Shown: piece after piece, positions 4,108 to 50,190 of the stretch | Layout of the letters: each line of letters begins with the position of its first letter | Position numbering within the stretch: position 1 is the stretch's first letter | DNA from: Bradyrhizobium sp. ISRA464 | GTDB lineage: Bacteria > Pseudomonadota > Alphaproteobacteria > Rhizobiales > Xanthobacteraceae | Length of the DNA: 64,000 nucleotides | Direction of reading: 5' to 3' | NCBI RefSeq assembly: GCF_029910095.1 | Contig: NZ_CP094526.1 | Span: 7,564,001 to 7,628,000 of the forward strand | Program-made: the position numbers and the translations under genes | The notes under the pieces: generated by a model | What the model saw: the letters and a program-made list of their open reading frames with translations, nothing else | The model's database searches: none | Told to the model about the DNA's origin: nothing

Positions 4108-4295
4108 TTTGGAGAGTGAACTTGCCACGTCGGCGAGGGAAATCACCTCTCGCCATGGAGTCGATAGAAGATCGTTATCGTCGCTCGCCGCGCCGCATGA
4201 TGCCGTATCGAGGAATGCCACTAGCCGCCACATCGCACCTCGAAACCGAGGTTTTATTTTCTTCAATTGCCTGAGACGAGATGGCGATCAACGAA
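4108..4295 (-). promoter_or_regulatory. Recurring upstream element, copy R1 (before the GMC pair)
   Basis: Read on the minus strand, the core is ATAACGATCTTCTATC followed by GACTCCATGGCGAGAGG and TGATTTCC. The same arrangement occurs in R2 (6907-7088), R3 and R4, and in more diverged form in R5-R7. R1 and R2 also share the distal block around TCGCACCTCGAAACCG and CTGAGACGAGATGGCG, so about 185 bp is duplicated between them. In each copy the core points toward the following gene. I infer a promoter or operator; the binding factor is unknown. Confidence 0.6.
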
Positions 4296-4335
4296 GCTCC
4301 ATACGTCCAGGAGCATTGCTTCGCTGATTCCTTCG

Positions 4336-4848
4336 CTATCGTTCACGAGATTCAATGGCCCCCCTCTTAAGCCAGTGATCGACGGAAATCCGTCCTGGTC
4401 CCCACGCCATGATACCGAGCGCCATTGCAGCCCAGGTAAGATGGATCGGCCAGCCGTCGGGCACGGTGAGCTCTACGATCAGTGTCATGAACAACAGCCC
4501 GAGTGCGGCGAAGCGGGTGCCGAAGCCGAGCACCAGCGCCATCGGAAACATGACCTCGCCGCAGCCGGAGAGGAATGCCATCACCGTCGGCACCGGAAAA
4601 TGATAGGGGCCGCCCGGCAAATGCAACATGAACTCGCCAGTGAATAACGTCACCGCGGTGTCGCTGAGCTTGAAAAAACTAGCCCATTTCAGGATGCCGG
4701 ACTTCCAGAACGGCGCCGCCAGCGCTGCGCGCATCACGAACTGCACGAAGGACGGCAACGCGATTGCCTGAACCTGGCGCTCGGCCTTGTCGACGCGGAG
4801 ACCGAGCCGGAGGAAACCGGCGCTGATATGCCGATCAATGACCAACAT
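4336..4848 (-). CDS. DoxX-family membrane protein of the bufferin operon
   Basis: Small integral membrane protein of the DoxX family with about four hydrophobic segments (PSFVQFVMRAALAAPFW, VPTVMAFLSGCGEVMFPMAL, RFAALGLLFMTLIVELTV, HLTWAAMALGIMAW). I start at ATG 4848, preceded by CCGGAG, which gives a 14-bp overlap with the end of bufC; an upstream TTG at 4863 is possible. DoxX proteins often close bufferin-type operons and may exchange electrons with quinones, but a catalytic role is not shown for this one. Translation is likely coupled to bufC. Confidence 0.85.
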   Translation of the reverse strand: MLVIDRHISAGFLRLGLRVDKAERQVQAIALPSFVQFVMRAALAAPFWKSGILKWASFFKLSDTAVTLFTGEFMLHLPGGPYHFPVPTVMAFLSGCGEVMFPMALVLGFGTRFAALGLLFMTLIVELTVPDGWPIHLTWAAMALGIMAWGPGRISVDHWLKRGAIESRER

Positions 4849-5629
4849 GTTTCTCCGGAGCAACTGAAACGAAAGCGCCCGCCTGGATCAGGCCGGCGAT
4901 GTTGGCGGCAAGGTCGAAAGACGCCGAAGATCGCAGTGCCGATGCAGCGGCCTCGCCGAGCGGGCGTCCGGCCGTTAGGCTCGTCAGGAACGCCGCGGCA
5001 TCGTCGGGCAGATGCCGGACGACAACGTCGGTATCGGGGCGCGTGATCAGCGCATCTTCGGGTACGCTCGCATTAATCTGACCTGACGTGCCCTCGCCGC
5101 GATTGGCGGCAAATATTGTGACCGCCGAGAAGGACGAGCGCATGATCCGCGTGGCCGGATGCGCGACGAATACCGCCTCCACCAGCCGTTCGGGCGGGAT
5201 CGCCGCCAGTGCGTCAACCGCGAGCGGCTCGGCGTCTGCCGCGTGATAGGCATCAAGCCAGGCGCGCTCGATCCGCGCGACGTCGGCGAGCCACGGCATG
5301 GCCTGTGCGTACTCGTAACTTTCGATCAGAGCCGGAAAGTCGCGGCCGTAGTCAAGCAGCAGCGGCGAAGTCGGCGGCGTGGCACGGACATGTTGACGCG
5401 CCATGGCGCGGAAGAATTCGACTCCGGTAATCCGCTGGACCGCGGGGAAGATTGCGGCCAGCGCATCAATCAAGCTGACCGTCACGTTGTTGCGATAGAC
5501 GTTGTAGCGCCTGACTGCGCCCTTCCCCGCGGGACCACTGACAATCGTGGGCGTCGGGCGCCGAGGATTCACCAACGCCGATGCGAAGGCCGCCGCATAG
5601 CACAACGATTCCTGCTCAAGTGACTGCAT
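4835..5629 (-). CDS. bufC: DUF2063 protein, partner of the MNIO enzyme (BufC-like)
   Basis: 264-residue cytoplasmic protein of the DUF2063 family, the usual partner of DUF692/MNIO enzymes in RiPP operons, where it is thought to recognise or present the precursor. The N-terminal DUF2063 region shows [20 protein letters not shown] and [15 protein letters not shown], both typical. The start overlaps the end of bufB by 14 bp, and its end overlaps the DoxX gene by 14 bp, so the three are translationally coupled. Family and gene order are clear. Its exact role rests on characterised relatives in Caulobacter-type bufferin and methanobactin systems. Confidence 0.88.
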
Positions 5630-6527
5630 GACGGACGTCTCGCTGATGGCGGTCGAGGATCGATTGCGCCGCCGCCGCTTCCGCCCTCAGATTCGGCCAA
5701 TCCGGAATCTTGCTGTCCCATTCGATCAGGGTCGGAATCGGGCCGCAGCCCGCGATGATGGTCTCGTACAGCTTCCATACGGCGTCGGCGACCGGCCCGT
5801 CATGGCTGTCGATCAGGAGCGGCGCGCCCTCGTCATCGGCCTGCTCGGCATGACCGGCGAGATGAATCTCTCCGACAGCCGAGAGCGGGAAGTCGGCGAG
5901 ATAGTCGCGGGCGGCGAAGCCGTGATTGGTGGCGGACACGAGCACGTTGTTGATGTCGAGCAGAAGACCGCACCCGGTGCGGCGCGAGACGGCGCGGATG
6001 AAGTCCGTCTCGCTCATGGTCGACTGGCGAAAAGCAACATAAGTCGACGGGTTTTCCAGCAGCAGCGGCCGGCGGATCGCCTCCTGTATCTCGTCGATAT
6101 GATCGCAAACCCGCGCGAGCGTCGCTCCCGTATAGGGCAAGGGCAGCAGGTCGTTATAGAACGTGGTCTCGTGTGTTGACCAGGCGAGATGTTCCGAGAT
6201 CAGCGCGGGCTCGTAGCGCTCGACCAGATGGCGGAAGCGCGCAAGATGCGTCTTGTCGAGCGGCTGCGGACCGCCGATCGACATGCAGACGCCGTGCAGC
6301 GATATAGGATGGTCGCGGCGCATGGCCTCTAGCACGCGATGCGGCGCGCCGCCGGCGCCCATATAATTCTCCGCGTGAACCTCGAAGAAGCCGCTCCATA
6401 CGCCTTCCGCAAGAATCACGGCGAAATGCTCATGCTTGAAGCTGGTCCCGGCAAGCCCGTCAACTGAAAACGCGGGAAAGCGAAGAGGCATGTCGTCCAC
6501 CGCGGTTGGGGCGATCGCCGCGTTCAT
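5616..6527 (-). CDS. bufB: DUF692 multinuclear non-heme iron oxidative enzyme (MNIO, BufB-like)
   Basis: 303-residue TIM-barrel enzyme of the DUF692/MNIO family, the class that contains MbnB and BufB and modifies cysteines in ribosomal peptides with iron and O2. Likely metal-binding segments are [51 protein letters not shown] and IDSHDGPV, which together supply the expected His, Asp and Glu ligands. It follows the bufA precursor by 47 bp and overlaps bufC by 14 bp. By homology it should convert Cys residues of BufA to thiooxazole-type heterocycles before export; that chemistry is established for relatives, not for this protein. Confidence 0.92.
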
Positions 6528-6573
6528 GCCGTCTCTCCGCCTTCCTGATTACTCGTCGCCCCGGCTGCGCGGT

Positions 6574-6873
6574 CTAGACCGGCTTAAGCGAGCCAGTCTT
6601 GCCGTTCGGCAGCTGAATGCTGGTGCAGGTGCCACCCCGTACGAACTTCCACGCGTTGCTCTGGAAGTCGACGGTCGAAGTGCCCTGGCACGTCGTTCCG
6701 GGACCCGCGGCGCAATCGTTTTGGCCCTTCAGCGCAACGCCGAAGCACTTCTCCTTCTTGGCGGCGATCGCAGCATCGGTTTCCGCCTTGCTCAGGGGAG
6801 CGGCGGCGGCGACGGTCGCGAGCGCGGTCGACACGGCGCCAGCGAGCACGAGTGAACTGATCATCGTCTTCAT
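6574..6873 (-). CDS. bufA: DUF2282 bufferin precursor peptide (BufA-like)
   Basis: 99-residue predicted periplasmic RiPP precursor. An N-terminal signal peptide ([15 protein letters not shown] to the VAAAAP cleavage region) precedes a mature part with four cysteines at 43, 54, 62 and 83, in the contexts [25 protein letters not shown] and GGTCTS. The [15 protein letters not shown] region is the DUF2282 hallmark. I start at ATG 6873, which has GGAGAG just upstream; a GTG at 6885 inside that site is less likely. It is the first gene of the operon, with element R2 about 35-60 bp upstream. Characterised bufferins bind copper through MNIO-made thiooxazoles, so copper buffering is the best guess. 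Confidence 0.92.
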
Positions 6874-6906: not shown

Positions 6907-7088
6907 GGAGAGTGGCCTTGCAAGGCCTGCTACGGAAATCACCTCTCGCCATAGAGTTGATAGACGATCGTTATTGTCGATCGAAGCGCGGCGTGATGCC
7001 ATAGCGAGGAAGGTCACCAGCCGCATCGCACCTCGAAACCGCCGTTTTGTTTTCTTCATTGTCTGAGACGAGATGGCGGATCAGCGAA
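6907..7088 (-). promoter_or_regulatory. Recurring upstream element, copy R2 (before bufA)
   Basis: Minus-strand core ATAACGATCGTCTATC, then AACTCTATGGCGAGAGG and TGATTTCC, ending about 60 bp before the bufA start. The distal half matches R1 nearly base for base around CGCACCTCGAAACCG and CTGAGACGAGATGGCG. Its placement directly before a monocistronic leader of the buf operon makes it the probable promoter region. The ATG inside GGCGAGAGG opens a short frame that is probably incidental. Confidence 0.6.
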
Positions 7089-8093
7089 TTTCCACGTGCC
7101 TCGATCCAGATTTCGCCGAGAAGCTGCAGGTCGCGCGCGAGCTGCGTCGGCAGGCATAACGAAAAGTGCTGGCAGTGAACGATTCTAAGCGTTTGACGCC
7201 GTGTTGGTGGCCGCGTTCATCCTTGCGGGCCGCGTGTCCACCCGGGCCGCCGTCGCCTAGCTGATCCGAACCCCGCACATACCCGCGATGATCGCGGCCG
7301 AGATAACGACGCTTATTGCGACACCCGCGCCCCAAAGACTATTTGCGGCGCGTTGATTGACGCCATGCGCGATCAGCACCACCCGCAAGCCAGACGCAAG
7401 GTGGCTCAGCACAAAAAATACTCCGAGCGCGTAGTGAGGCAAGAGGCGGATATTCCATGCGTCATGAATGAGCCCGGCCGGGGCTCCGATCGCGAAATTC
7501 CAATCGGTCGGTATACCGAGAAAGCTTCGAGCGTAGATGAATACCGAGTTCATATGCCCGAGGATGTACAGCGAGAGGTAGGCCCCCGAGCCGACCTGAA
7601 ATGTCCGATGGAAATCCTGCGGGGCGGCACTCCAACGCCATGCCAGAAACAGACCAGTGCCGATCTGGAAAAGCATGGCCGCGACCAACAGCGGTTCACC
7701 TACGCCAGACCGGTAGACTGCGCGGCCGATCCTCATGACGGCCGCATGCGCGTCGGGGCCGATCAACCCAAACAAGTGATTGGCTAGATGGAACGCCACG
7801 TATAGGTACAAGACCGCCGCCGTCGTTCCGTGGACAATGCGCCAGCGCCCCACAGCCGGCCGCGCTGCAGCCGCGGGATTGCCGGCGGTCTGTGACCAAA
7901 TCGCGATTGCGAGCCAAAGCACGCACCACACGAGTTCGTCTGGGATGGGGCTATGAATCAGGACCTGAACGACGCCAAGAAAGACAAAGAGCGTTGGGGT
8001 CGTCACGCCGGCATAGGCGAGCCGCCGCGCCGCTGGATCGGCGTCGGGCCGCCAAGCGAGCGCGAGCGCGAGAAACGGCACGACGAACGCTAG

Positions 8094-9534
8094 GAGCCCG
8101 TCCAGATAGCGCTGGTATCGGGCTTGTTGATGAACGATAGCTTGCTCAAGCGGCTCTTGCGAGCTTTGTGAGGTTGTGGGTGGTGCAGATCAACGCCCAC
8201 TCGGCCGTCACTTTCTCGATGCCACGCAGCAGGAACTGCCTGAACCCGCGCGCCTGCTTGATCTGCCCGAACACCGGTTCGACGATTTGCTTCCTGAGCC
8301 GGTAGCGGCTTCGCCAGCCGGCGCGCTTGAGCTTGGCCCGCATGGCTTTGGTGAGCGCTCCGGTCATGGTTCGCTTGCCTTCGGCGGCATGCTTGGCGCG
8401 CCCGATCGCGACGTAAGCGCTGATGTGGCGATCGGCGAGGGTTTGCAGGTTGGCCTCGCTCAGATAGCCGCTATCGGCCGAGGCTTCCTTCGGCGTGACG
8501 CCGAGATTGGCCTCAATGCCGTCAATCAGCCCTACGAGTTGGCCATGATCGCTCATGCGCGCAGTGAGCCCGTGCGCAACGATGATCTGGGCCGTTCCAT
8601 CGACAGCGGCCTGGGCATTGTAGCCTTGGATGTACCCGTCCTTGGTCTTCAGGATGCGGCTGTCCGGATCCGTGAAGTTGCGCTGCGCTTTGCCCTCGGG
8701 CTCCGCTTTCGGCGGTGCCGGCGTCTTGCCGTTCTTTTTCCGCCCTTCCGCAATGCGCTTCTTTTCCACCTCGGCCCGGCGCCGCAGTTCCTCCTCGGCG
8801 GCGGCTTTGGCTTCCGCCTCGAGCTCGGCCTTGGCCTCGCGGATCTTGGCCAGGCGCTTCTCCTTGTCGGCCACCCAGTCCGGCAGCTCATCGCCGCGCT
8901 TGTTGCCGTAGAGCCGGTCCTCCTCGGCATCCGCCGCCTCGGCCGCTTCAAGCCAGCGATCGACCTCGGCTTGAAGCTCTGCTTCTCGCTTCTTCATGCG
9001 CTCGTAGCTCATGGCCTTGTGCTTCGATGCGTTCGCCTTGATCTTGGTGCCATCAAGCGCCACGTGCCCGAGCTTCACCAACCCAGCCTTCTCAGCAAGC
9101 TTCAACACCTGAACAAACAGACCCGCCAAGGCCTCAAGGTGCCGCTTGCGGAATTCCGAGATCGTGCGGAAGTCCGGCGGGTCGCCCGCCACAATCATCA
9201 TAAAGTCCGCCCGATCCACGGCCGCCTTGGCGATCCGGCGCGACGAGTAGATGCCGCTCGCATAACCGTGCAGAAGTAGCGCCGTCATCATCCGCGGATC
9301 AAACGGCGGCTGTCCAAGCCCGCTCCGGTAGCTGGCGGTGATCGCAGATAGGTCGAGGCTCTCTCGCACCAGCGACACAATCAGCCGCGACAGGTGGTCC
9401 TTCGCCACATAATCCTGCACGCTCGGCGGCAGAAGCTGCGCCTCATCGATCTTCCAGGGGCGAAAATCCTTGCTCATGCGCACGCAAAGAATCAGACTCG
9501 CACCCTCTTGACCAGCGACTACTCAGACAGCCTC
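8094..9534 (-). mobile_element. IS1182-family insertion sequence, copy 1
   Basis: 1441-bp element with imperfect terminal inverted repeats beginning GGAGSCYGTC, flanked on both sides by CTAG (8090-8093 and 9535-9538). This indicates a 4-bp palindromic target duplication. Its transposase is identical in protein sequence to copy 2 at 45589-47029, which has the opposite orientation. Removing the element restores the interrupted membrane-protein frame, so the boundaries are well supported. Confidence 0.92.
8146..9477 (-). CDS. IS1182-family DDE transposase (copy 1)
   Basis: 443-residue transposase with the N-terminal DUF772-type domain (RLIVSLVRESLDLSA, DPRMMTALLLHGYASGIYSSRRI), the catalytic core beginning GHVALDGTKIKANAS, a central charged coiled-coil insertion rich in Glu, Ala and Lys (about 180-250), and a C-terminal DDE portion (ADSGYLSEANL, YRLRKQIVEPVFGQIKQ). 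I start at ATG 9477 (MSKDFRPW); a GTG two codons upstream is in frame. No disruption is visible, so the element may be active. A long opposite-strand frame within it is a shadow. Confidence 0.93.
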   Translation of the reverse strand: MSKDFRPWKIDEAQLLPPSVQDYVAKDHLSRLIVSLVRESLDLSAITASYRSGLGQPPFDPRMMTALLLHGYASGIYSSRRIAKAAVDRADFMMIVAGDPPDFRTISEFRKRHLEALAGLFVQVLKLAEKAGLVKLGHVALDGTKIKANASKHKAMSYERMKKREAELQAEVDRWLEAAEAADAEEDRLYGNKRGDELPDWVADKEKRLAKIREAKAELEAEAKAAAEEELRRRAEVEKKRIAEGRKKNGKTPAPPKAEPEGKAQRNFTDPDSRILKTKDGYIQGYNAQAAVDGTAQIIVAHGLTARMSDHGQLVGLIDGIEANLGVTPKEASADSGYLSEANLQTLADRHISAYVAIGRAKHAAEGKRTMTGALTKAMRAKLKRAGWRSRYRLRKQIVEPVFGQIKQARGFRQFLLRGIEKVTAEWALICTTHNLTKLARAA

Positions 9535-9723
9535 CTAGGGCCAGGATCAAGGCAGCGGCGACAATTGCGAGAGTCGACGGTATTGCGCCCTGCGTGCCAA
9601 CGACGGCATGAAAGGCGCGGAGTAGAAAAGGATACCAAATGGCCGCCGCCGCGGGAGCCAGCGCCGAATAGTCGAAGCGTGGCCCAATCAAGGCGCGTCG
9701 GCCCCCCGGCCGAGCAAACGCAT

Positions 9724-10098
9724 TCATCTAAAACCCCTAAGTATCAGCCGCACCATCAGGACTGACGTCGTGAGCAGGACAGCCGCCGCGAGGACCCAGT
9801 AGTACCAGGCGCTGAGCGCCGCGAATTTGAAAGCAAACGGCGCGATGACAAAGACCGCCCCGACGGCTCGATCGACCCAAAGGTGCAGCCAGTAGGGAAT
9901 GACGTGGACGAGACCGGTGGGATGGACGGTCAGGGCAGCCAAGAGCAGCGCGGCCACACCGGCGATAACCGTAAGCTCGACTGCAACGAGTCCGCTTTGG
10001 CCGAGCTTCAGCACGAACGGAGCTGCGATCAAGACGATCGCGACAGGATAATCGGTCAGCTTGGCGTGGATAGACTTAGTGATGAAGCGAAACGACAT
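9724..10098 (-). CDS. Small four-helix membrane protein, unknown function
   Basis: 124-residue protein with four hydrophobic segments (YPVAIVLIAAPFVLKLG, LTVIAGVAALLLAALTV, GAVFVIAPFAFKFAAL, WYYWVLAAAVLLTTSVLMV). The repeat of an IAPF-type motif in helices 1 and 3 suggests an internal duplication, as in SPW-repeat membrane proteins. I start at MSFRFITKS because GAGGAG lies 8 bp upstream; the open frame extends 35 codons further without support. Its stop overlaps the start of the IS-interrupted membrane gene (ATGA), so the two were translationally coupled. Confidence 0.7.
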   Translation of the reverse strand: MSFRFITKSIHAKLTDYPVAIVLIAAPFVLKLGQSGLVAVELTVIAGVAALLLAALTVHPTGLVHVIPYWLHLWVDRAVGAVFVIAPFAFKFAALSAWYYWVLAAAVLLTTSVLMVRLILRGFR

Positions 10099-10117: not shown

Positions 10118-10300
10118 TTACTCGAGGGAGTCTTTGCGACGTGGAAAGTGCATCCACCCAAGAGGGCGATGTCGCAATCCTGTGATGGCAAGCACTCCGT
10201 CACGGGCCAGCCCGGTTAGGCGAGCGGTAAGGTACGCCGGCACGCCAACCATTAGAAATGCCTGGTCGTTATCGATTCCATTCCACTCGTCCGGCGCCAT
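10118..10300 (-). CDS. Short hypothetical ORF
   Basis: 60-residue frame (MAPDEWNGIDNDQAFLMVG to PRRKDSLE) lying 20 bp upstream of the 124-residue membrane gene and in the same direction. The composition looks like a folded soluble protein, not a shadow frame, and no overlapping gene competes for the region. I do not recognise the family and see no strong ribosome-binding site. It may be a remnant. Confidence 0.35.
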   Translation of the reverse strand: MAPDEWNGIDNDQAFLMVGVPAYLTARLTGLARDGVLAITGLRHRPLGWMHFPRRKDSLE

Positions 10301-10416: not shown

Positions 10417-11307
10417 TCACGCAGTCCGAGCGACGAGCGACCAGTCGCGAAGGCGGGCGACCTTGACGAAAGCGTCCAGCGCCGGCGAGTAGTGACGCCC
10501 CTGCACCGCCAATAGCCGCACCTCCCGCGAAATCGGGTCGCCTTCGAGCGGAATGGTCTTGAGCGTCGGAAGGCGCGGCATGTGCTCGGGCGCGAGTATC
10601 ACGCCGAAGCCAGCGGCGGCCATGTGCTGCAGGTGCAAGTCGTGACCGCTGCAGTGGCCGAGGTTAGGTGGTTCCTCGAGGAAATACGACTGCTGGATCT
10701 TAGGGGCGACGTCGCATTCGACGCGCTCCAGCAACACGGTCTCACGCAGGTCGTCAATGCTGATCGAGGGACGGTTTGCGAGCTGGTGTGTCGCCGCGAG
10801 AACTACGACGTAGCGCTCCTCAAACAGCGACCAGTCGTCGATGCGGGCGGGCACGTCCTGCACGTCCCCGACCATTGCGGCGTTGATCTCGCCTTCAAGC
10901 AGGAGATCGACGAGCTTCTCCGCCGCGCCCTCGCGCAGCTCAACGTGAAGTCCAGGGATGGAGTCTGCGATCTCCGCGATCGGATCAAGGACGAGCGATG
11001 CCGAGATGGAAGGGGCAAGACCAATCTTCAGTGGCGCAACATCCTTGCGTTGGAACTCCTGGGCTCTGCGATGCACTGCCTCTGCCGAGGCCACTGTGCG
11101 CTCCAGCATCGGAAGTACTTCCTTTCCGAGGTCAGTAAGTTGGGTCAGCTGGCGCTCGCGGTAGATCAACTGACCACCGAGTTCCTGTTCGAGCTTCTGC
11201 ACCCCCTTGGTCAGCGCGGGTTGCGTGACATTACATTGTTCGGCTGCGCGGGTGAAGTTGAGCGTAGATGCGACAGCGAGGAAATAGCGAACCTGATGAA
11301 GCTCCAT
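10417..11307 (-). CDS. LysR-family transcriptional regulator
   Basis: 296-residue LysR regulator. The N-terminal winged helix-turn-helix is clear (MELHQVRYFLAVASTLNFT, AAEQCNVTQPALTKGVQKLE), followed by the linker helix and a periplasmic-binding-like effector domain (LKIGLAPSISASLVLDP to the end). I start at MELHQ with GGAGA 8 bp upstream. It is a paralogue of the LysR gene at 28034. Both share the unusual HDLHLQH/RDVHLQH and LxPEHMPRLP segments, so they probably sense related effectors. Here it lies upstream of the small membrane-protein genes, which it may control. Confidence 0.9.
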   Translation of the reverse strand: MELHQVRYFLAVASTLNFTRAAEQCNVTQPALTKGVQKLEQELGGQLIYRERQLTQLTDLGKEVLPMLERTVASAEAVHRRAQEFQRKDVAPLKIGLAPSISASLVLDPIAEIADSIPGLHVELREGAAEKLVDLLLEGEINAAMVGDVQDVPARIDDWSLFEERYVVVLAATHQLANRPSISIDDLRETVLLERVECDVAPKIQQSYFLEEPPNLGHCSGHDLHLQHMAAAGFGVILAPEHMPRLPTLKTIPLEGDPISREVRLLAVQGRHYSPALDAFVKVARLRDWSLVARTA

Positions 11308-11980: not shown

Positions 11981-12616
11981 TCAGAAATTCTGCGGCTGCT
12001 GTAGTCTTATATTGAGGCGGTCCGCCATCCGGCTCAACTCGGGAAGCGAACGCGCCTTCATCTTCCGCATCAGGTTGGTGCGATGCACCTTCACTGTGGA
12101 TTCGGCGACACCGATATCGTTGGCAATTTGCTTGTTCAGGCGACCGGCCACGACATGGAGCATGATGTCACGCTCGCGAGAGCTGAGCATGTCGAAACGC
12201 TTCTTGAGCGCAGCCAATGCGCTATCACTCTCTCGACGGGCACGATCGCGAGCGAGGCCGGCCTGGACGGCATCAAGCAGATCCTGATCACGGAATGGCT
12301 TCGTCAGGAACTCTATCGCACCGCCCTTCATCGCCTGCACGGTCATCGGCACGTCGGCGTGCGCTGTGATGAAGATGATCGGCACTTGTCTGTTTGCGGC
12401 GACAAGGTCGCGCTGAAGCTCAAGACCGCTTTTCCCCGGCATTCTCACGTCGAGCACCAGGCAAGTGGGGCCCTCCGGCGGATCGGCGTTGAGAAAATCG
12501 GGAACAGACGGAAATTGCTGGGCAGGTAAGCCGACGGTGCGCAACAGCCGGACGACCGAGTCGCGAAACTCGGGATCGTCATCGATAACCAAGACACTGG
12601 GACTTGCCTCACCCAT
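11981..12616 (-). CDS. FixJ/NarL-type two-component response regulator
   Basis: 211-residue response regulator. The receiver domain (about 7-120) has the acidic pair IDDDPE, the phospho-acceptor in LVLDVRMPGKSG and the switch Lys in FLTKPF. The C-terminal LuxR-type HTH shows LSSRERDIMLHVVAGRLNKQIA and VAESTVKVHRTNLMRKM. It belongs to the FixJ/TodT/StyR group. It is divergent from the single-domain receiver at 12830 and near the giant hybrid kinase, which are its likely partners. The palindromes at 12697-12734 lie 80-120 bp upstream of its start. Confidence 0.93.
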   Translation of the reverse strand: MGEASPSVLVIDDDPEFRDSVVRLLRTVGLPAQQFPSVPDFLNADPPEGPTCLVLDVRMPGKSGLELQRDLVAANRQVPIIFITAHADVPMTVQAMKGGAIEFLTKPFRDQDLLDAVQAGLARDRARRESDSALAALKKRFDMLSSRERDIMLHVVAGRLNKQIANDIGVAESTVKVHRTNLMRKMKARSLPELSRMADRLNIRLQQPQNF

Positions 12617-12829: not shown

Positions 12830-13234
12830 ATGGAACCAGAAATGCTGAACCGAACATTGATAGCCATCGTCGACGACGATCGGTTCTATCGTGAGTCAAT
12901 GCGAAAGCTCGTAGGATTAATGGGCTACAATGTCGAGGCGTTTCCGTCAGCAGCCGATTTCCTGGCGTCGCGCTCTTTACGAGAAACTACCTGCTTGATC
13001 GCCGACGTTCACATGCCCGGAATGACTGGAGTCGAGCTGCACAGGCATTTGGTCGATGCTGGGTACGCGATTCCGACGATCCTCATTACCGCCTATCCCG
13101 ACAAGGTCGTCAGGGATCAGGCTCTAGCGGAGGGGATTGTTTGTTACCTCGACAAGCCGGTGGACGATGACTATCTCGAGCAGTGCCTGCGTTCGGCCCT
13201 GCAGCCGGGCAAGCCGATTGAAGACAATTCATGA
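12830..13234 (+). CDS. Single-domain response regulator (receiver only)
   Basis: Receiver domain without an output domain, about 134 residues: VDDDRFYRESM, phospho-acceptor in LIADVHMPGMTG, switch region ILITAYPDKV and CYLDKPVDD. The start is taken at ATG 12830 (MEPEMLNRT) with AAAGG upstream; ATG 12842 is possible. Its 3' end overlaps the 3' end of the giant hybrid kinase by 6 bp on the opposite strand. A lone receiver beside a histidine kinase usually acts as a phospho-sink or relay partner. Confidence 0.88.
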   Translation: MEPEMLNRTLIAIVDDDRFYRESMRKLVGLMGYNVEAFPSAADFLASRSLRETTCLIADVHMPGMTGVELHRHLVDAGYAIPTILITAYPDKVVRDQALAEGIVCYLDKPVDDDYLEQCLRSALQPGKPIEDNS

Positions 13235-16200
13235 GTCATTGTCCGCCGGCAGGGTGAACTGAAATACGGCGCCGCGAGGTTCGTTCGTTTCCGCCCACAA
13301 CTTGCCGCCATGAGCGTGTACGATAGAGCGGCATATCGACAACCCCATCCCTGTTCCACTTGACTTCGTGGTGTAAAAGGCCTCGAAGATCCGATCGAGA
13401 TGTTGCGCTTCAATGCCGGGCCCCGAATCGCGTATGGTTACGAGGGCGCCTGTCCGGTCCTGCTCCGTGCTGATCAACAGCTCTCTTGCTCCCTCTTCAA
13501 CCGAGCTCATTGCTTCAGCGGCATTGAGAATCAGATTCAGCAAGACCTGTTGCACCTGAATGCGATCCCCTAGAACTGGAAGCAATCCATCCGCAAGTCG
13601 GGTCCGGACCGAAACCTCATTCCTGTGGGTCACGCTTTGTGCCAATACGAGCACTTCGTTGATCGCCGCGTTGAGATCAAAGCGCTCCTTTCGCGGTGGC
13701 GCTTTCTTGATGTGATCACGTATCCGTCCGACGATGTCCCTGGCCCGGTCCGCGTCCCTGACAACACAACCGAGCGCTTCCTTCGCCTCATCCAGATTTG
13801 GCGGCTTCATTTCCAAAAAGCGAATCCCAGCACGGGCGTTGTTGCGAGCGGTAGCGATCGGATGCAGAATTTCGTGTGAGAGTGAAGCGGCCAATTCTCC
13901 CATCATGCTCACGCGGTTCATGTGGGCGAACTCCAATTCGAGCTGGCGCAGCTTTTCACGTTCGTCGTGTGCCCGCTTCCGTTCCGTCACATCGACGGTC
14001 GTGGTGATAACCTCGGCCAGTGTGCCTCCGGGAGAAAACACATGATAGCTGGTTCCTTCGACCCATTTTATTGTTCCGTCAGGTAGCAGAAGTCTAAACT
14101 CCGCCACGAAATCTCTTTTCTGGTGCACGGCCTCCTGAACCGCTCGCCACACTCTGTCGCGGTCCTCTGGGTGAATGCGCTGCCACATACTCTCTCGACT
14201 TGGAAGGCCGTGCAACGGATCAAACGCCCAGATCCTGTAACTCTCGTCCGACCAATAGAGGTATTGCATCGTTTTCGCGTTATATATCCAATTGCCGGTC
14301 CGAGTGAGTCTTTGGGCTTGACCAAGTGCTTCTTCGACGCGCTTGCGCTCTGTCAAATCGAGCACGAATGCAAGGCCCTCGTCGCCTCCTTCCTTGAACA
14401 GCGCGGCGCCAATAAGCACGGGAACGCGGCTACCGTCTTTCCGGATGTACTCCTTCTCGAAGGGCTGAACTATTCCGGTAGAGTTCAGTTCTGCCAAGGT
14501 CAACCTGTCGCGCTCGCGCCATTCGGGCGGAGACAGCTCAGTCCAGCGCACGCGGCCCGAAACGAAGTCTTCACGGCTATACCCTAAGATGCGTAGAAAC
14601 GCATCATTGGCTTCAAGGACTCGACCTTCGCGGTCAGCAATTAAGATCCCAATGATGTTGGCGTCGACCAAACGCCGAATCTTCGCTTCGCGATCTGCGA
14701 CCTCGCGATAAAGCCGCGAGTTTTCGAGCGAGATCGCCGCCTGCGACGCAAGCACCTTCAACACTGCGACGCGGTCAGGTGTGAACACGTGAGCCGCCAG
14801 GTTGTTTTCGAGGTAAAGTACACCGGCCAGGCTACTCTGTTTGAGCAACGGCAAGCAGAGAATTGAACGAGCCCCGTGCTGATGAATGTACTTATCGGCA
14901 GAAAACGGATTCGCGGCCGCAGCATCCTGGAGAAGAACGGTCTCTTTCGTTCGGATCACGTAATGGAGGATAGACTCGGGGAGATCTGCAGAGGTTGCAG
15001 TTGCATGTCGCTGGCCGACGGTCACTGTATTGTTGCCGGTAATAACTTCCGCTTCAATCTGGTACCCATCATTTACGGCTAGGATCAACAGACCTCTCGC
15101 GGCACCCGCATGCTCAATCGATGTGCGCATCAAGGTATCGATCAGTCTTTCCAGAACAATCTCGCCCGACACGACTTGCGAGACTTTGATAACAGTAGCT
15201 AGATCCAGTTGCTCGACCGGTGCGCCGATCGTATGCGTGGGGCCGGCAATCGGCCTCTCCTCCCTGAGGTGCGGATAGAACTCGTCGAGTTGGCGTACCT
15301 TGCCGAAGGCTCCCCAACGGATATATGCGTGCCGCGCGTGCTGCAGATAGGCATGCGCGATCTTCTTGAACCCGCGTGCGGCATAAAAGCGTGCGGCGAC
15401 CTCGTTGGCGAGCGCCTCGTTGTGGACAAAGCCATGCGCGTGTGCCGAATGGATAGCCTGCTCGTAAAGATGTTCGGCATCGAGCGCGCGGCCTTCGATC
15501 CGGGCGATCTCCGCCGCGACGAGTGCGGCACGGTTCTCGAAGTTGTCCGGACAAGCCTGCGCCCAGACCTCGAGCTGTCGGTGGTGGGCGGTCAGTGCAT
15601 CGACATGCTGCTGGCTGGCCGCCGCGGATTCGCAGGATGCCGCTCGGGAGAGTGCGCTGTAGAAGTGATACTCTGCCGTTTCGAACATTGACGGCGATGT
15701 CCACAGTAGCCGTTGCGCCCGCGACGAGGCCTCAATAGCCGACGCATAGTCGCCGGCAAAGAAGCGCGCCTGCAGCTTGCGGACCCAGTACCAGCCCGCG
15801 GCCAGCGTCAGATCTGGGTTCCTGCAGAAACGGGCTTCCAGTAGGAGTTCGTCAAACTGCTCATCGTCAAAGCGACCGAAAATCGGCGTCAAACCGCGGA
15901 GTGTCCGGATCAGCGCAAGCTGGCCGACGATCGAGTCGATCAAAAGACCGAACCGCATCTTCTGCGCAAACGCGAGGCCACGCTCGGCCTCACCTTGAAC
16001 CTCATCGAGTGAATCCCCCGCTGCAAGAAGGTTGGTGTTCAGGTGACTGCAGCAGTACGCCGCAAAAGTGAGGTCACCGATCTGGTTTGCCGTCTCAAAC
16101 GCACGCCGCAGCAGATCACGACCTTCCCGGACATGTCTCGTCCAAGGCGTGACTAAACTTCCAAAGTTCAGGTAGATCCTGGCCTGAAAGCGCTTTAGCC

Positions 16201-30320: not shown

Positions 30321-30356
30321 GTTGCGTTTGACGCGCTTTGACTTTCGGACGCCACC

Positions 30357-32223: not shown

Positions 32224-32257
32224 TTATTAGTAAAGCGAATAGCTTACGGAGATTGTA

Positions 32258-40239: not shown

Positions 40240-40500
40240 ATGGCTACAAAACCGACGGTGTGGGACAGAAGCTGATGGGGAGCCGTCCAGACGTCATGTC
40301 GACCAGAGCCGGCTATTCCAGTGGCGACCGGTCGAATGCGGCATACCGCAGAACCCACGCCGAGGTAATCGAGATCATCTTCAACGCCTACCAGACGCCC
40401 TATCGGGATCTGCTCGGGTTTTTCTTCCGGATCCATGATCCGACAACGCTCAACCGCCAGGAGAACTGCGCTGGATCGTGAAGAAGACGGTATGGCAACT
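40240..40500 (+). pseudogene. msrA: msrA remnant, truncated by an IS1182-family element
   Basis: Begins ATGGCTACAAAACC right after msrB and soon shifts frame. Recognisable MsrA text is STRAGYSSGDRSNAAYR, THAEVIEIIFNA, PYRDLLGFFFRIHDPTTLNRQ. The catalytic GCFWG region is deleted and the sequence ends before the IS1182 insertion at 40503. No matching C-terminus is found after the IS. Only MsrB activity remains from this locus. Confidence 0.8.
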
Positions 40501-40502
40501 AG

Positions 40503-41942
40503 GAGCCTGTCTGAGTAGTGACTGGTCAAGAGGGTGCGAGTCTGATTCCTTACATAGCGATGAGCAAGGAATTTCGCCCCTGGAAGATCGATGAGGCCCA
40601 GCTTCTGCCGCCGCGCGTGCAGGATTATGTGCCGCAAGATCACGTTTCGCGGTTGATCGTGTCGCTGGTCAGGGAAAGCCTTGATCTATCGGCGCTCCTC
40701 GGCAGCTACCGGAGTGGGCTGGGTCAGCCGCCGTTTGATCCGCGGATGATGACGGCGCTGCTTCTGCACGGCTATGCGAGCGGCATCTACTCGTCGCGGC
40801 GGATCGCCAAGGCGACGGTGGAGCGGGCGGATTTCATGATGATCGTGGCCGGCGACCCGCCGGACTTCCGCACGATCTCGGAGTTCCGGCGGCGGCACCT
40901 TAAGGCGCTGGCCGACCTGTTTGTGCAGGTGCTGAAGCTCGCCGAGAAGGCCGGGTTGGTGAAGCTCGGGCACGTTGCGCTCGACGGCACCAAGATCAAG
41001 GCGAACGCGTCCAAGCACAAGGCGATGAGCTACGATCGCATGAAGAAGCGGGAAGCGGAGCTTGAAGCGGAGGTCGATCGCTGGCTCAAGGCCGCCGAGG
41101 CCGCCGATGCGGAGGAGGACCAGCGCTACGGCGACCAGCGCGGCGACGAAATGCCCGATTGGGTGGCCGACAAGCAGAAGCGGCTTGAGAAGATACGCGA
41201 GGCCAAGGCCGCGCTGGAGGCCGAAGCCAAGGCTGCAGCCGAGGCGGAGAGCAAGGCGCGGGCCGAGGCCGAGGAGCGTCGCGTCGCCGAAGGCCGCAAG
41301 AAGAGCGGCAAGACGCCGACGAAAACCGAGCCCGACGGCAAGGCGCAACGCAATTTCACCGACCCGGAGAGCCGCATCCTGAAGACCAAGGACGGTTACA
41401 TCCAGGGCTACAACGCCCAGGCCGCGGTCGATGGTGCCCATCAGATCATCGTGGCGCAGACGCTGACCGGTTCCTCCAGCGATCAGGCGCAACTGGCGCC
41501 GTTGCTCGACGGGATCAGGGCCAATTTGGGGACCAATCCCGACGAAGTGTCGGCCGACGCCGGCTACTGCTCCGCCGCCAATCTTCGCACGATCAAGCGG
41601 CGGCGCATCGAGGGCTACATCGCCACCGGGAGGCAGAAGCACGGCACCCCGTCCGCCACTGCGAAAACGGCTTCAAGAGCCGGATCGCTGATCGCCAGGA
41701 TGAGCACCAAGCTCAAGCGCGCCGGCTACCGAAGTCGCTACCGCTTGCGTAAGCAGATCGTCGAACCCGTCTTCGGACAGATCAAACAGGCAAGAGGGTT
41801 CAGGCAATTCCTGCTGCGCGGCATCGACAAAGTGAAGGCCGAATGGGCCCTGATCTGCACCGCTCACAACCTCGTCAAGCTGGCGAGGGTCGCATGAGCC
41901 GCTATCATTAGCCCGCCTTCCCGGAGCTAACTGGACAGGCTC
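40503..41942 (+). mobile_element. IS1182-family insertion sequence, copy 3 (diverged)
   Basis: 1440-bp element bounded by GGAGCCTGTC and GACAGGCTCC, a perfect 10-bp inverted repeat, and flanked on both sides by CTAG (40499-40502 and 41943-41946). Its transposase is clearly diverged from copies 1 and 2, so it represents a separate arrival. It sits next to the msrA remnant. Confidence 0.92.
40560..41897 (+). CDS. IS1182-family DDE transposase (copy 3)
   Basis: 445 residues from MSKEFRPWKIDEA. Same layout as copy 1: N-terminal helical DNA-binding region, GHVALDGTKIKANASKHK, an Ala/Glu/Lys-rich coiled-coil insert, then SADAGYCSAANLRTI and LRKQIVEPVFGQIKQARGF. The region around QKHGTPSATAKTASRAGS differs from copies 1 and 2. 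The frame is intact. An upstream extension of 14 codons to 40518 lies in the terminal repeat and is unlikely to be used. Confidence 0.92.
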   Translation: MSKEFRPWKIDEAQLLPPRVQDYVPQDHVSRLIVSLVRESLDLSALLGSYRSGLGQPPFDPRMMTALLLHGYASGIYSSRRIAKATVERADFMMIVAGDPPDFRTISEFRRRHLKALADLFVQVLKLAEKAGLVKLGHVALDGTKIKANASKHKAMSYDRMKKREAELEAEVDRWLKAAEAADAEEDQRYGDQRGDEMPDWVADKQKRLEKIREAKAALEAEAKAAAEAESKARAEAEERRVAEGRKKSGKTPTKTEPDGKAQRNFTDPESRILKTKDGYIQGYNAQAAVDGAHQIIVAQTLTGSSSDQAQLAPLLDGIRANLGTNPDEVSADAGYCSAANLRTIKRRRIEGYIATGRQKHGTPSATAKTASRAGSLIARMSTKLKRAGYRSRYRLRKQIVEPVFGQIKQARGFRQFLLRGIDKVKAEWALICTAHNLVKLARVA

Positions 41943-45460: not shown

Positions 45461-45584
45461 GACCTAATCCCTCGGATCACGTCGCGCGATTCGCGGCGCG
45501 CGAGCTCATCGGCCAACAGCCTGACGCCGAGCCGCCGCGTCCGTTCGCGGATCACTCCTCGCAACATCAACTCAATCTCAAGCC
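45457..45584 (-). pseudogene. Probable TetR-type regulator C-terminal remnant, cut by IS1182
   Basis: Text LGLEIELMLRGVIRERTRR and LLADELARRESRDVIRG ends in a stop that overlaps the MFS start. Across the IS1182/IS630 cluster, the DNA at 48153 onward continues the same frame as DRFDRRCLCN, giving CLCNLGLEIE, which resembles the C-terminal domain of TetR regulators. The helix-turn-helix is not found, so only a fragment remains. Confidence 0.35.
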
Positions 45585-45588
45585 CTAG

Positions 45589-47029
45589 GAGGCTGTCTGA
45601 GTAGTCGCTGGTCAAGAGGGTGCGAGTCTGATTCTTTGCGTGCGCATGAGCAAGGATTTTCGCCCCTGGAAGATCGATGAGGCGCAGCTTCTGCCGCCGA
45701 GCGTGCAGGATTATGTGGCGAAGGACCACCTGTCGCGGCTGATTGTGTCGCTGGTGCGAGAGAGCCTCGACCTATCTGCGATCACCGCCAGCTACCGGAG
45801 CGGGCTTGGACAGCCGCCGTTTGATCCGCGGATGATGACGGCGCTACTTCTGCACGGTTATGCGAGCGGCATCTACTCGTCGCGCCGGATCGCCAAGGCG
45901 GCCGTGGATCGGGCGGACTTTATGATGATTGTGGCGGGCGACCCGCCGGACTTCCGCACGATCTCGGAATTCCGCAAGCGGCACCTTGAGGCCTTGGCGG
46001 GTCTGTTTGTTCAGGTGTTGAAGCTTGCTGAGAAGGCTGGGTTGGTGAAGCTCGGGCACGTGGCGCTTGATGGCACCAAGATCAAGGCGAACGCATCGAA
46101 GCACAAGGCCATGAGCTACGAGCGCATGAAGAAGCGAGAAGCAGAGCTTCAAGCCGAGGTCGATCGCTGGCTTGAAGCGGCCGAGGCGGCGGATGCCGAG
46201 GAGGACCGGCTCTACGGCAACAAGCGCGGCGATGAGCTGCCGGACTGGGTGGCCGACAAGGAGAAGCGCCTGGCCAAGATCCGCGAGGCCAAGGCCGAGC
46301 TCGAGGCGGAAGCCAAAGCCGCCGCCGAGGAGGAACTGCGGCGCCGGGCCGAGGTGGAAAAGAAGCGCATTGCGGAAGGGCGGAAAAAGAACGGCAAGAC
46401 GCCGGCACCGCCGAAAGCGGAGCCCGAGGGCAAAGCGCAGCGCAACTTCACGGATCCGGACAGCCGCATCCTGAAGACCAAGGACGGGTACATCCAAGGC
46501 TACAATGCCCAGGCCGCTGTCGATGGAACGGCCCAGATCATCGTTGCGCACGGGCTCACTGCGCGCATGAGCGATCATGGCCAACTCGTAGGGCTGATTG
46601 ACGGCATTGAGGCCAATCTCGGCGTCACGCCGAAGGAAGCCTCGGCCGATAGCGGCTATCTGAGCGAGGCCAACCTGCAAACCCTCGCCGATCGCCACAT
46701 CAGCGCTTACGTCGCGATCGGGCGCGCCAAGCATGCCGCCGAAGGCAAGCGAACCATGACCGGAGCGCTCACCAAAGCCATGCGGGCCAAGCTCAAGCGC
46801 GCCGGCTGGCGAAGCCGCTACCGGCTCAGGAAGCAAATCGTCGAACCGGTGTTCGGGCAGATCAAGCAGGCGCGCGGGTTCAGGCAGTTCCTGCTGCGTG
46901 GCATCGAGAAAGTGACGGCCGAGTGGGCGTTGATCTGCACCACCCACAACCTCACAAAGCTCGCAAGAGCCGCTTGAGCAAGCTATCGTTCATCAACAAG
47001 CCCGATACCAGCGCTATCTGGACGGGCTC
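45589..47029 (+). mobile_element. IS1182-family insertion sequence, copy 2
   Basis: 1441 bp, same length and transposase protein as copy 1 but in the opposite orientation. It is flanked by CTAG at 45585-45588; at the right side CTAG begins at 47030 and has itself been split by an IS630 insertion at its TA. Confidence 0.92.
45646..46977 (+). CDS. IS1182-family DDE transposase (copy 2)
   Basis: 443 residues, identical in sequence to the copy 1 transposase at 8146-9477. Domain layout is the same: helical N-terminus, GHVALDGTKIKANAS, charged coiled-coil insert and C-terminal DDE part with VEPVFGQIKQARG. The frame is intact. Identity between the two copies indicates recent transposition or gene conversion. 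Confidence 0.93.
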   Translation: MSKDFRPWKIDEAQLLPPSVQDYVAKDHLSRLIVSLVRESLDLSAITASYRSGLGQPPFDPRMMTALLLHGYASGIYSSRRIAKAAVDRADFMMIVAGDPPDFRTISEFRKRHLEALAGLFVQVLKLAEKAGLVKLGHVALDGTKIKANASKHKAMSYERMKKREAELQAEVDRWLEAAEAADAEEDRLYGNKRGDELPDWVADKEKRLAKIREAKAELEAEAKAAAEEELRRRAEVEKKRIAEGRKKNGKTPAPPKAEPEGKAQRNFTDPDSRILKTKDGYIQGYNAQAAVDGTAQIIVAHGLTARMSDHGQLVGLIDGIEANLGVTPKEASADSGYLSEANLQTLADRHISAYVAIGRAKHAAEGKRTMTGALTKAMRAKLKRAGWRSRYRLRKQIVEPVFGQIKQARGFRQFLLRGIEKVTAEWALICTTHNLTKLARAA

Positions 47030-47032
47030 CTA

Positions 47033-48150
47033 GTACCCACTTTTCTTGGATCGTGAGTCGTGATTCAAGATATGGATGATACCCGAAGCAAGAGAAGTCC
47101 ACCTTTCGAGGAAAGATCGCAAGGTGCTTGAGGCGTGCTGTCGCTCACCGATGACGTTGCTGCGCGATTTGAAGCGGGCGCGGATAGTTCTGTTGGCGGC
47201 GGACGGGCGCAGCACCCGATCGATCGCCAAGGAAGTTGGGGTCCAGCCGCGGATTGTCAGCCTTTGGCGGCATCGTTATGCCGACCAAGGCCTTGAAGGG
47301 CTGCAAGACAAGCCGCGCCCGGGCAAGCAGCCGATCTATACGAAGGCCACGGACAAGCGGATTCTGAAGCTGCTGGACCAGCCGCCCCCGCAAGGGTTCG
47401 CACGCTGGACCGGGCCCCTGCTGGCCGAGGCGCTGGGCGATGTTGACGTCCAATATGTCTGGCGGTTTCTGCGCAGCCACAAGATCGACCTCGCGGCTCG
47501 CAAGTCCTGGTGCGAGAGCAACGACCCGAACTTCACGGCCAAAGCCGCCGATGTTGTCGGCCTCTATGTCGCCCCGCCCGCGAAGGCCATTGTGCTGTGC
47601 GTGGACGAGAAGCCCTCGATCCAGGCTTTGGAGCGAGCGCAGGGTTATCTGAAACTGCCCAATGGCCGCGCCTTGACCGGCCAGAGCCACGACTACAAGC
47701 GGCATGGCACCACAACATTGTTTGCGGCACTCGAAGTCGCCACCGGGAAGATCATCGCGACGCATTCAAAACGGCGGCGCCGCGTCGAGTTTCTCGGCTT
47801 CATGACCAGCGTCACCGCGGCCTTTCCGGGCCGGAAGCTTCACGTCATCCTCGACAATCTCAACATCCACAAGAAGAACGAGGACTGGCTCAAGGCCCAT
47901 CCCAATGTGCAATTCCATTTCACGCCGACGAGTGCGTCCTGGCTCAATCAGGTCGAGGTGTGGTTTTCGATCCTGCAGGGGCAGTCGCTCAGCGGCACCT
48001 CCTTCACAAGCCTCAAGCAGCTTCAGGATCACATCGATGCCTACGTCACCGCATACAACGGCAGAGCCGAGCCCTTCGTCTGGACCAAGAAAAAGGTCCG
48101 TCAACGCCGATTCAAAGGCCGCCGTATCACCCAGCTCTGATTCCGGGTAC
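47033..48150 (+). mobile_element. IS630-family insertion sequence nested in the IS1182 target duplication
   Basis: About 1118 bp, ends GTACCC and GGGTAC, flanked by TA on each side (47031-47032 and 48151-48152), as expected for IS630. The TA used is the centre of the CTAG duplication at the right end of IS1182 copy 2; the final G of that CTAG is now at 48153. So IS630 arrived after IS1182. Confidence 0.85.
47076..48140 (+). CDS. IS630-family transposase
   Basis: 354-residue transposase with an N-terminal helix-turn-helix region (RSTRSIAKEVGVQPRIVSLW) and a DDE domain. Catalytic positions are visible as VLCVDEKPSIQA, VILDNLNIHKKNEDWL and SWLNQVEVWFSIL. The frame starts at ATG 47076, close to the left end, and ends 10 bp before the right terminal repeat. 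Intact, so potentially active. Confidence 0.93.
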   Translation: MIPEAREVHLSRKDRKVLEACCRSPMTLLRDLKRARIVLLAADGRSTRSIAKEVGVQPRIVSLWRHRYADQGLEGLQDKPRPGKQPIYTKATDKRILKLLDQPPPQGFARWTGPLLAEALGDVDVQYVWRFLRSHKIDLAARKSWCESNDPNFTAKAADVVGLYVAPPAKAIVLCVDEKPSIQALERAQGYLKLPNGRALTGQSHDYKRHGTTTLFAALEVATGKIIATHSKRRRRVEFLGFMTSVTAAFPGRKLHVILDNLNIHKKNEDWLKAHPNVQFHFTPTSASWLNQVEVWFSILQGQSLSGTSFTSLKQLQDHIDAYVTAYNGRAEPFVWTKKKVRQRRFKGRRITQL

Positions 48151-49165: not shown

Positions 49166-49286
49166 GTAAATTGTCTCCTCGATTGTTTGCCTGTTTGCTG
49201 GACATGTTCCGGCGATAGGAGCCCCTTCGACATCTCTTGCCAGGGGCACCCCTGTGCTGGGAAACCGGTAGCGTTCGCTGAAGATT

Positions 49287-49922
49287 TCACTTGTCCAGCA
49301 GCGGATAGAATTGGGTCCAGACGTCGTCTTTCTTAGCGCTCGCCATGTGGCAGAACGCGCATTCGGACTTTGGCTGCAGCTTGGCTGTCGGCGCCTTCGG
49401 CTCGTGATGATTGAAGTTGTAGTAACCCCAGCCTCCGGTGTCGGCGTAGCGCTTGCTATCCTTGACCGCAACGTCGGCGCCGTTCAGCTCTCCCGGGAAG
49501 AAGCCTCGCCCGGAGGCCTCGGTGCGCGACCCATCCGGGTTCTCGGCTGGGAGTGTCAGCTGTAGTTCCTTGAAGAAGATCGTTCCCTCCGGAAACTCAC
49601 CTGTCTTCTTGTAGAGCTCGTACGAGCCCGGCTCGATGTAGACGTTGTGAAATTCGGGAAAATTGGCCTTCCCGCCGTTGAGCGCATTCGGAGTGAGCGG
49701 TGAGCCGACGAACACCCACTCATTGAAATTCTTCGGCAGGATCAAGTCGCCCGATGCGGTATATTCGGGGAGATAGCGCTTCCTCGTCGGTGCGCCGCCG
49801 TTATTGGATTCGGACTGCGCGAATACAGCCGTTATAGCAACTGCGCTGAAAACCGCTCCGGCGATCAGTAGGGTAAGGCGCCTACCTTTTTTCTCCATGA
49901 CCATACTTTTCTTCCTACGCAA
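49287..49922 (-). CDS. Cytochrome P460-family secreted heme protein, copy A
   Basis: 211-residue periplasmic c-type heme protein. A basic start and hydrophobic segment (LTLLIAGAVFSAVAITAVFA) act as signal peptide. The mature domain has P460-family text (YKKTGEFPEGTIFFKELQ, GWGYYNFNHHEPKAP) and one heme site, CAFCH, near the C-terminus. P460 proteins oxidise hydroxylamine or act as heme sensors, and some relatives have a plain c-heme; which applies here is unclear. It is divergent from the peroxiredoxin gene at 50288, and element R4 lies between, pointing toward the peroxiredoxin. A second P460 gene is at 58413. Confidence 0.88.
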   Translation of the reverse strand: MRRKKSMVMEKKGRRLTLLIAGAVFSAVAITAVFAQSESNNGGAPTRKRYLPEYTASGDLILPKNFNEWVFVGSPLTPNALNGGKANFPEFHNVYIEPGSYELYKKTGEFPEGTIFFKELQLTLPAENPDGSRTEASGRGFFPGELNGADVAVKDSKRYADTGGWGYYNFNHHEPKAPTAKLQPKSECAFCHMASAKKDDVWTQFYPLLDK

Positions 49923-50110
49923 TTGAGTAATATTCGTCCCTGGTTGCCCTGGGCGTTACTCGATGATGAAATCTGCGACAGTGGCACCCATTGATCGCAG
50001 CGCAGGCCGAAATTTTCCAATAGCCGGCATATATAGTTTCCATAGCAGCGGGGAATATTGCTGCGACGGTCCTCTCTGCCATTCGCAAATCAAGGCAAGG
50101 TGCGCAGGCC

Positions 50111-50190
50111 GCGACGGCACCACGCCGCACGGCGAGGCAATAACGATCGTCTATCGACTCTATGGCGAGAGGTGATTTCCCTCGCCGTGG
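50111..50190 (+). promoter_or_regulatory. Recurring upstream element, copy R4 (before peroxiredoxin)
   Basis: Plus-strand ATAACGATCGTCTATC, then GACTCTATGGCGAGAGG and TGATTTCC, preceded by GCCGCACGGCGAGGC. Orientation is opposite to R1-R3, as is the gene that follows, so direction relative to the gene is kept. It ends about 100 bp before the start at 50288. It lies in the divergent spacer with the P460 gene. Confidence 0.58.

Follow-up and report, generated by a model that had tools for sequence, protein, structure and literature searches.

The 64,000-nucleotide stretch of Bradyrhizobium sp. ISRA464 analysed here (the window; contig NZ_CP094526.1 of assembly GCF_029910095.1, positions 7,564,001 to 7,628,000) contains a dispersed DNA element in at least nine copies, and each copy, judging from its sequence, is very probably the operator–promoter unit of one family of LysR-type activators that is encoded in the same region. 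The original prediction had described seven copies (R1 to R7), all of them present at the positions it gave; the repeat that it observed is real, and more extensive than it stated. In the mechanism that we propose, a regulator tetramer would bind both 15-bp T-N11-A boxes of a copy, at about −72 to −36, the downstream box would abut a weak −35, and σ70 RNA polymerase would be recruited to a −10 at positions 48–53 of the element, with oxidation of a conserved cysteine of the regulator, Cys198, as the likely trigger. In this way, genes for antioxidant defence, methionine repair, electrophile detoxification, efflux and copper sequestration (bufferin) would form a regulon of their own, confined almost entirely to one accessory region (the island) and enlarged partly by the copying of promoter regions. 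Binding by the regulator, activation and oxidant sensing are what we infer; the copies, the geometry of their boxes, a −10-like element, a bias in position and orientation, the co-occurrence with the regulator and the sites upstream of its distant homologues can be read from the DNA.

Copies of the element and their position relative to genes

With up to three mismatches, ATAACGATCGTCTATC occurs five times in the window against 0.26 expected, and CATGGCGAGAGG by itself is not above chance there (12 occurrences, 10.3 expected). A matrix of a 31-bp core—a core chosen after looking at the data—was built from R1–R4 alone and ranked R7 next (19.4), followed by two copies that had been missed, R8 (core 59106–59136, − strand) and R9 (core 62920–62950, − strand), at 16.1 each, and by R5 (12.8) and R6 (12.3), after which the next score in the window was only 4.8. 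A matrix from all nine copies gives its own members 37.5–48.0, which is circular, and the next position in the window 6.7; on 40 Markov sequences, its best scores had a mean of 8.4 and a maximum of 19.0. R5–R7 had been described as diverged and yet alignable without gaps, and this holds for all nine copies, in which 13 of 47 columns are invariant. Three subtypes can be distinguished, with R1–R4 and R7 forming type I, R8 and R9 type II, and R5 and R6 type III.

All nine copies are intergenic, as had been claimed for the first seven, and eight of them have a gene start ahead within 52–557 bp. On the − strand, the type I operator R1 (4142–4178), with its two T-N11-A boxes, precedes a pair of GMC oxidoreductase genes (2359–4032 and 736–2325), the start codon lying 106 bp past the 43-nt matrix, and R2 (6938–6974, type I) lies 61 bp from the start of a bufferin-type operon with genes for DUF2282 (6574–6873), MNIO (5616–6527), DUF2063 (4835–5629) and DoxX (4336–4848) proteins. 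R3 (26145–26181, − strand, type I) precedes an RND operon (24424–25584 and 21254–24427) at 557 bp from the start called here, whereas the + strand operator R4 (50140–50176, type I) is 108 bp from the start of a peroxiredoxin gene (50288–50767) and has a divergent cytochrome P460 gene behind it. The two type III operators are also on the + strand: R5 (39696–39732) precedes msrB (39788–40237) by 52 bp, and R6 (30351–30387) a quinone-oxidoreductase-like gene (30474–31391) by 83 bp. The type II operators, both on the − strand, precede a cytochrome P460 gene (R8, 59112–59148; gene 58413–58988; 120 bp to the start) and a gluconate 2-dehydrogenase subunit 3-like gene (R9, 62926–62962; gene 61785–62579; 343 bp). 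The original prediction had each copy facing a downstream gene, and this is true of six of its seven copies; it fails for R7 (19331–19367, + strand, type I), the target of which is uncertain, as no called start lies ahead. The gene that starts 227 bp behind R7, from which R7 points away, encodes a 1957-aa protein with Ser/Thr kinase, AAA, GAF, PAS and histidine kinase domains (13229–19102).

A larger sample of sites came from 26 carrier genomes, represented by the window together with 80 fetched stretches, with genes called by a simple codon-based caller that overextends some starts. It holds 246 sites above 12 bits, and 228 remained for the analysis of position after exclusion of 18 at the ends of stretches. 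Of these, 225 are intergenic, compared with 6063 of 18186 random positions. If a site has a single neighbouring start, that start lies ahead of it in 86 cases and behind it in 20; 114 sites have starts on both sides and five on neither. A set of 102 dissimilar sites was also derived from the 246, by leaving out 2 without full flanks and then dropping 142 of the 244 for similar flanks, and here the single neighbouring start lies ahead 32 times and behind 12 times (p=0.004), so that the orientation bias is real, if not absolute.

Targets were clustered only when they lay at most 700 bp from a site, and the 191 genes obtained fall into 43 clusters, 20 of which have at least three members. They were named by Pfam or NCBIfam, some labels resting on resemblance to these families, and include quinone-oxidoreductase-like, histidine kinase, cupin, RND membrane fusion, P460, GMC and peroxiredoxin clusters, as well as cytochrome c, MFS, nitroreductase, RidA-like, COX1-like, MsrB and molybdopterin oxidoreductase clusters. 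The distance from site to start is nearly fixed in several of the larger clusters, with 52–54 bp in five of five msrB genes and 72–85 bp in 19 of 21 quinone-oxidoreductase genes; in the RND cluster of R3, it spans 144–557 bp over 16 genes. The bufferin operon stands alone in its cluster among the 191 genes and was seen in the window's genome only, of the 26.

Predicted operator and promoter and their proposed regulator

When the first T of TATCGA is numbered 0, the left box of the element extends from −12 to 2 (ATAACGATCGTCTAT) and the right box from 10 to 24 (ATGGCGAGAGGTGAT), with a central dyad AT..AnT..AT. Both are 15-bp T-N11-A dyads separated by 7 bp, 37 bp in total, with T(−11) and A(1) as the conserved letters of the left box, which is degenerate in type III, and T(11) and A(23) as those of the right box. 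An iterated matrix drifted to a strand-symmetric motif, which thereby revealed the dyad, and the orientation of sites was taken solely from the nine-copy matrix. (A further model named R2, not to be confused with operator R2, comprises 74 sites, namely the 102 dissimilar ones minus 13 scoring at most 16 and minus 15 others.) Conservation among the 102 dissimilar sites is concentrated at −14 to +28 and at a second element at 48–53, where A49 occurs in 77 and T53 in 74 of the sites. Both letters are found jointly in 68 of them, whereas the next best offset reaches 24 and the median offset 4. The spacing of A49 and T53 is that of A−11 and T−7 in a −10 element. If positions 48–53 are a −10, the transcription start would lie near +60, and the centres of the two boxes at about −65 and −43. 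The element probably combines two dyad boxes with a σ70-like −10 downstream of them, as an activator operator with its promoter would. In R1, position-wise conservation predicts the −10 to be CACTCT (4113–4118, − strand; element positions +48 to +53). The earlier reading of the repeat as a promoter region is supported, as is its sharing among stress genes, most copies lying before genes of stress defence.

A LysR-type regulator encoded at 10417–11307 (− strand) is likely the reader of these operators. It matches HTH_1 with 69.3 bits and LysR_substrate with 91.9 bits, both above the cut-off, and contains Cys198. It is one of three LysR paralogues in or beside the window: a 62–63% identical one (28034–28981, + strand) has an open frame, lacks Cys198, has weaker Pfam scores and is apparently decaying, and a third, 89% identical, lies just outside the window (genome positions 7628079–7628951). 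What ties the operator to this regulator family beyond the island are sites upstream of distant homologues. A matrix trained on island sites only was applied to 102 homologues (E≤1e-35), in each case to the 300 bp upstream. Nearly all of these homologues are 32–42% identical (one 88% copy and one of 54% were both negative), and 99 of the upstream sequences are distinct. More than 10 bits were reached upstream of 57 of the 102 (55 of 99 with exact duplicates counted once), and more than 15 bits upstream of 46, compared with 70 (5.3%) and 3.9%, respectively, of 1332 other open reading frames (ORFs) of the same loci. When the homologues were grouped into 53 upstream families, 23 were positive. 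Other LysR genes within the distant loci gave no positive in seven cases, and because seven cases were few, the control was made up of 30 other LysR genes out of 72 matches in the window's genome: none was positive, the highest score being 9.7, upstream of an OxyR-like gene. In Mesorhizobium, sites precede the LysR gene itself (by about 67 bp) and a DUF2282 (bufferin-type) gene (by about 86 bp), as well as a short-chain dehydrogenase gene that is divergent from another LysR gene.

A profile alignment pairs Cys198 of the regulator with Cys199 of OxyR, and column 208 with Cys208; of the 44 regulators in the fetched stretches, 43 retain Cys198. Cys198 is therefore probably equivalent to OxyR Cys199, which suggests a thiol-based sensing of oxidants. 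Together with the nature of the targets, this probable OxyR cysteine makes oxidant control plausible.

Distribution, counter-evidence and alternative readers

The genome-wide scan proposed along with the original prediction was carried out with a sequence-only covariance model. In the whole genome (8.46 Mb), it found at least 14 matches, 13 of which lie in 90 kb (7557588–7647249), in the window and its flanks and thus nearly all in one region; the lone match outside, at 546273, precedes an RND-type membrane-fusion gene. In such scans, scoring was confined to the top first-look candidates (150 of 609 in this genome, and 31, 20, 12 or 8 per genome elsewhere), so that weak sites are under-counted. 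Among 195 genomes of the genus, the regulator (E≤1e-60) is present in 32 and sites (E≤1e-4) in 33, with both in 31, the regulator only in one, and sites only in two (Fisher 1.7e-32). At E≤0.1, sites are found in 46 of the 195, the 13 extra genomes having one or two weak matches each. In one of the genomes without the regulator at E≤1e-60, a strong lone site (G161:C1:2681483-2681527, in L115; E=1.3e-9) may be a remnant or have another regulator as its reader. Among 297 genomes of the order, strong sites and a regulator that is at least 60% identical are confined to the same three; in two others (G417 and G402), a single weak match precedes a 36%-identical LysR gene, by 125 and 259 bp respectively, and G367 has one weak match and no such LysR gene at E≤1e-45. 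Of 28 loci in named genomes whose regulator is at least 54% identical, 21 have a site (E≤0.001; flanks of up to 10 kb per side), and these include carriers of both regulator and sites outside the genus, namely Mesorhizobium hawassense, Rhizobium calliandrae and Devosia nitrariae.

Several observations weigh against the operator–promoter reading or against parts of it. With wider matrices from R1–R4 (43 and 50 bp), R7, R8 and R9 stand out, but R5 and R6 sink into the background, and membership of the latter two therefore rests on the core and on type III sites in other genomes. R7 is without a clear target, and the block downstream of it is not conserved beside the site. The predicted −10 is off by one in R4, and 34 of the 102 dissimilar sites lack the combination of A49 and T53. 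No site above 10 bits was found upstream of 45 of the 102 homologues, and the island regulators have no site within 400 bp; autoregulation is therefore not universal. The loci of the homologues are, besides, mutually related. As for the cysteine, a pairwise HMMER alignment to a solved OxyR places Cys198 one residue earlier than Cys199, a MAFFT pair alignment places it elsewhere, and a cysteine at 208 is found in only 14 of the 44 regulators, mostly of the diverged group B, most of group A having tyrosine. Strong sites are present without the regulator at E≤1e-60 in G150 and G161, a 43%-identical regulator is present without sites in G048, and seven of the 28 named loci, including that of a metagenome-assembled genome of Caulobacterales (L215), lack a site at E≤0.001 within those flanks. 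Neighbouring genes co-occur with the sites as well, if less than the regulator does, so that co-occurrence alone could mirror a shared island, and related sites are not independent.

Other readings of the element were weighed as well, the least doubtful of which—and a very unlikely one at that—is an operator of the RclR-like AraC protein (36743–37699) or of the response regulator (11981–12616), both encoded inside the window. The AraC protein, which has a cupin domain, resembles the reactive-chlorine regulator RclR at a score below the family cut-off (128.5 against 400), and among the matches listed, its homologues of at least 73% identity occur in 12 of 33 site carriers and 8 other genomes (p=4e-6), and those of the response regulator of at least 84% identity in 13 of the 33 and 3 others (p=4e-9). 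However, among the same listed matches, each is absent from most site carriers at those identities. At E≤1e-70, the AraC protein is found in 22 of the 33 carriers and in 48 other genomes, whereas the LysR protein is in 31 of the 33 and in one other, and the response regulator at E≤1e-60 is present in 149 of the 195 genus genomes. T-N11-A dyads are, moreover, described as the LysR motif in PMC5002191. Slightly harder to credit is the chromosomal OxyR-like protein (7718176–7719048, L322) as the reader. The geometry of the boxes is that of OxyR sites (as given in PMC8787470), and the region upstream of the OxyR-like gene had the highest of the 30 control scores, just below the threshold of 10; the OxyR-like protein and the island regulator may have overlapping site preferences. 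Yet the gene (E≤1e-30) was found in 16 of 16 genus genomes tested, the window's genome among them, and only four of these have matches to the element (E≤0.1), three of them strong.

The promoter of an extracytoplasmic function (ECF) sigma factor, which the original prediction had offered as a possibility, is not supported and very improbable; the arrangement would be like that of bufferin loci associated with a sigma factor and NrsF. The targets here are genes of a kind that such sigma factors presumably serve, and this we count for it, as well as the occurrence of sigma factor and NrsF genes in Buf1-type bufferin clusters (PMC12452194). However, the nearest of the 17 Sigma70_r2 genes found in the genome is about 127 kb from the cluster, the paired dyads reach well upstream of the σ70-like −10, beyond the two short hexamers of such a promoter, and the sites track the LysR gene. 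Least probable of all is a mobile repeat without regulatory function, either a miniature inverted-repeat transposable element (MITE) or duplicated debris: some copies share long flanks and several transposase genes lie in the region, but the 102 dissimilar sites conserve chiefly the boxes and the −10, and the distances to genes are nearly fixed.

The spread of the element by duplication, as also proposed earlier, can be followed for some of the copies. R1 and R2 stand before unrelated genes (GMC oxidoreductase and bufferin) and yet agree at 81% of positions over 118 nt, R3 shares 66%, R5 and R6 share 50 nt at 92% identity, and R8 and R9 lie within a longer duplicated block. These identities make promoter copying likely for R1, R2 and R3 and for R5 and R6. 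The dissimilar sites, by contrast, share only the operator and the −10, and copying was therefore either old or not the sole route.

Elsewhere in the window, two inverted 1452-base stretches with transposase-like ORFs (8090–9541 and 45582–47033) are 100% complementary, with a diverged third relative at 40499–41899. An MFS transporter gene (54852–57580) appears split by a DDE transposase gene (55605–56828), the C-terminal half of the MFS profile matching 54852–55541 and the N-terminal half 56852–57580. A nitroreductase and carboxymuconolactone-decarboxylase-like pair is duplicated (31588–32803 and 38101–39297), with two 300-nt blocks of 90% and 84% identity.

Two weak candidate operators were located by comparison. 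R10 (10252–10283, − strand; 6.7 bits, not significant on the window alone) precedes an SPW-domain gene (9724–10098), and its short pattern occurs 22 times in the window and the fetched stretches, with a same-strand gene start 128–180 bp downstream in 20 cases. R11 (26767–26797, + strand) precedes an OsmC gene (26959–27468), and 9 of the 12 occurrences of its pattern have an OsmC-like gene, judged by eye, downstream.

Relation to OxyR and other systems

If the operator–promoter reading is right, the LysR family gains a candidate operator, a promoter position and 20 recurring target clusters at once, and the island offers a natural case for watching a regulon grow by promoter copying. A further suggestion is that bufferin metallophores can be governed by a LysR-type, probably oxidant-responsive regulator instead of a sigma/anti-sigma system. 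More tentatively, and with the balance of our expectation somewhat against it, the island could represent a self-contained, transferable oxidant regulon, in which a LysR sensor distinct from OxyR moves between genera with a portable operator–promoter cassette which, by being pasted before unrelated genes, among them those for copper-binding bufferin peptides, draws these genes into a single response of its own. A literature search that covered titles and the openings of abstracts, with subscription papers mostly outside it, did not meet this operator or regulator, and an earlier description is possible. PMC13272141 seemed pertinent and was set aside; the LysR-family regulators named in its accessible text are LsrA and LsrB and, for E. 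coli, HypT.

Most likely, the element is the operator–promoter of an OxyR-like and yet distinct LysR family, unusual for its concentration in one accessory region. OxyR motifs are described as two tandem ATAG-N7-CTAT repeats with 7–10 bp between them (PMC8787470), the OxyR tetramer binds four ATAG elements at 10-bp intervals (PMC3953959), and the OxyR boxes at oxyS are centred at −66 and −44 (PMC5002191). The element resembles this arrangement in its two tandem 15-bp boxes with an interval of 7 bp, within the range of OxyR, and in its predicted box centres at −65 and −43. Antioxidant targets and a cysteine that probably matches Cys199 are further likenesses. In contrast to OxyR, the box letters are ATAACGATCGTCTAT and ATGGCGAGAGGTGAT, the sites are clustered in one region, and the regulator is only 27% identical to E. 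coli OxyR, scores 86.7 with the NCBIfam OxyR model, below its cut-off of 329, and shares its genome with an OxyR-like gene at another locus.

With LysR-type activators in general, the regulator shares the HTH_1 and LysR_substrate domains, and the element the T-N11-A dyads that lie upstream of, and abut, the predicted −35. Unlike in such systems, many copies in a short stretch of DNA would serve unlike genes instead of one divergent target; the Mesorhizobium relatives do have a site that is divergent or faces the regulator gene itself. As in bufferin loci associated with a sigma factor and NrsF, a bufferin-type operon is among the targets; in contrast to these loci, a sigma factor gene is not near, and an operator lies before a DUF2282 gene, both here and in Mesorhizobium loci.

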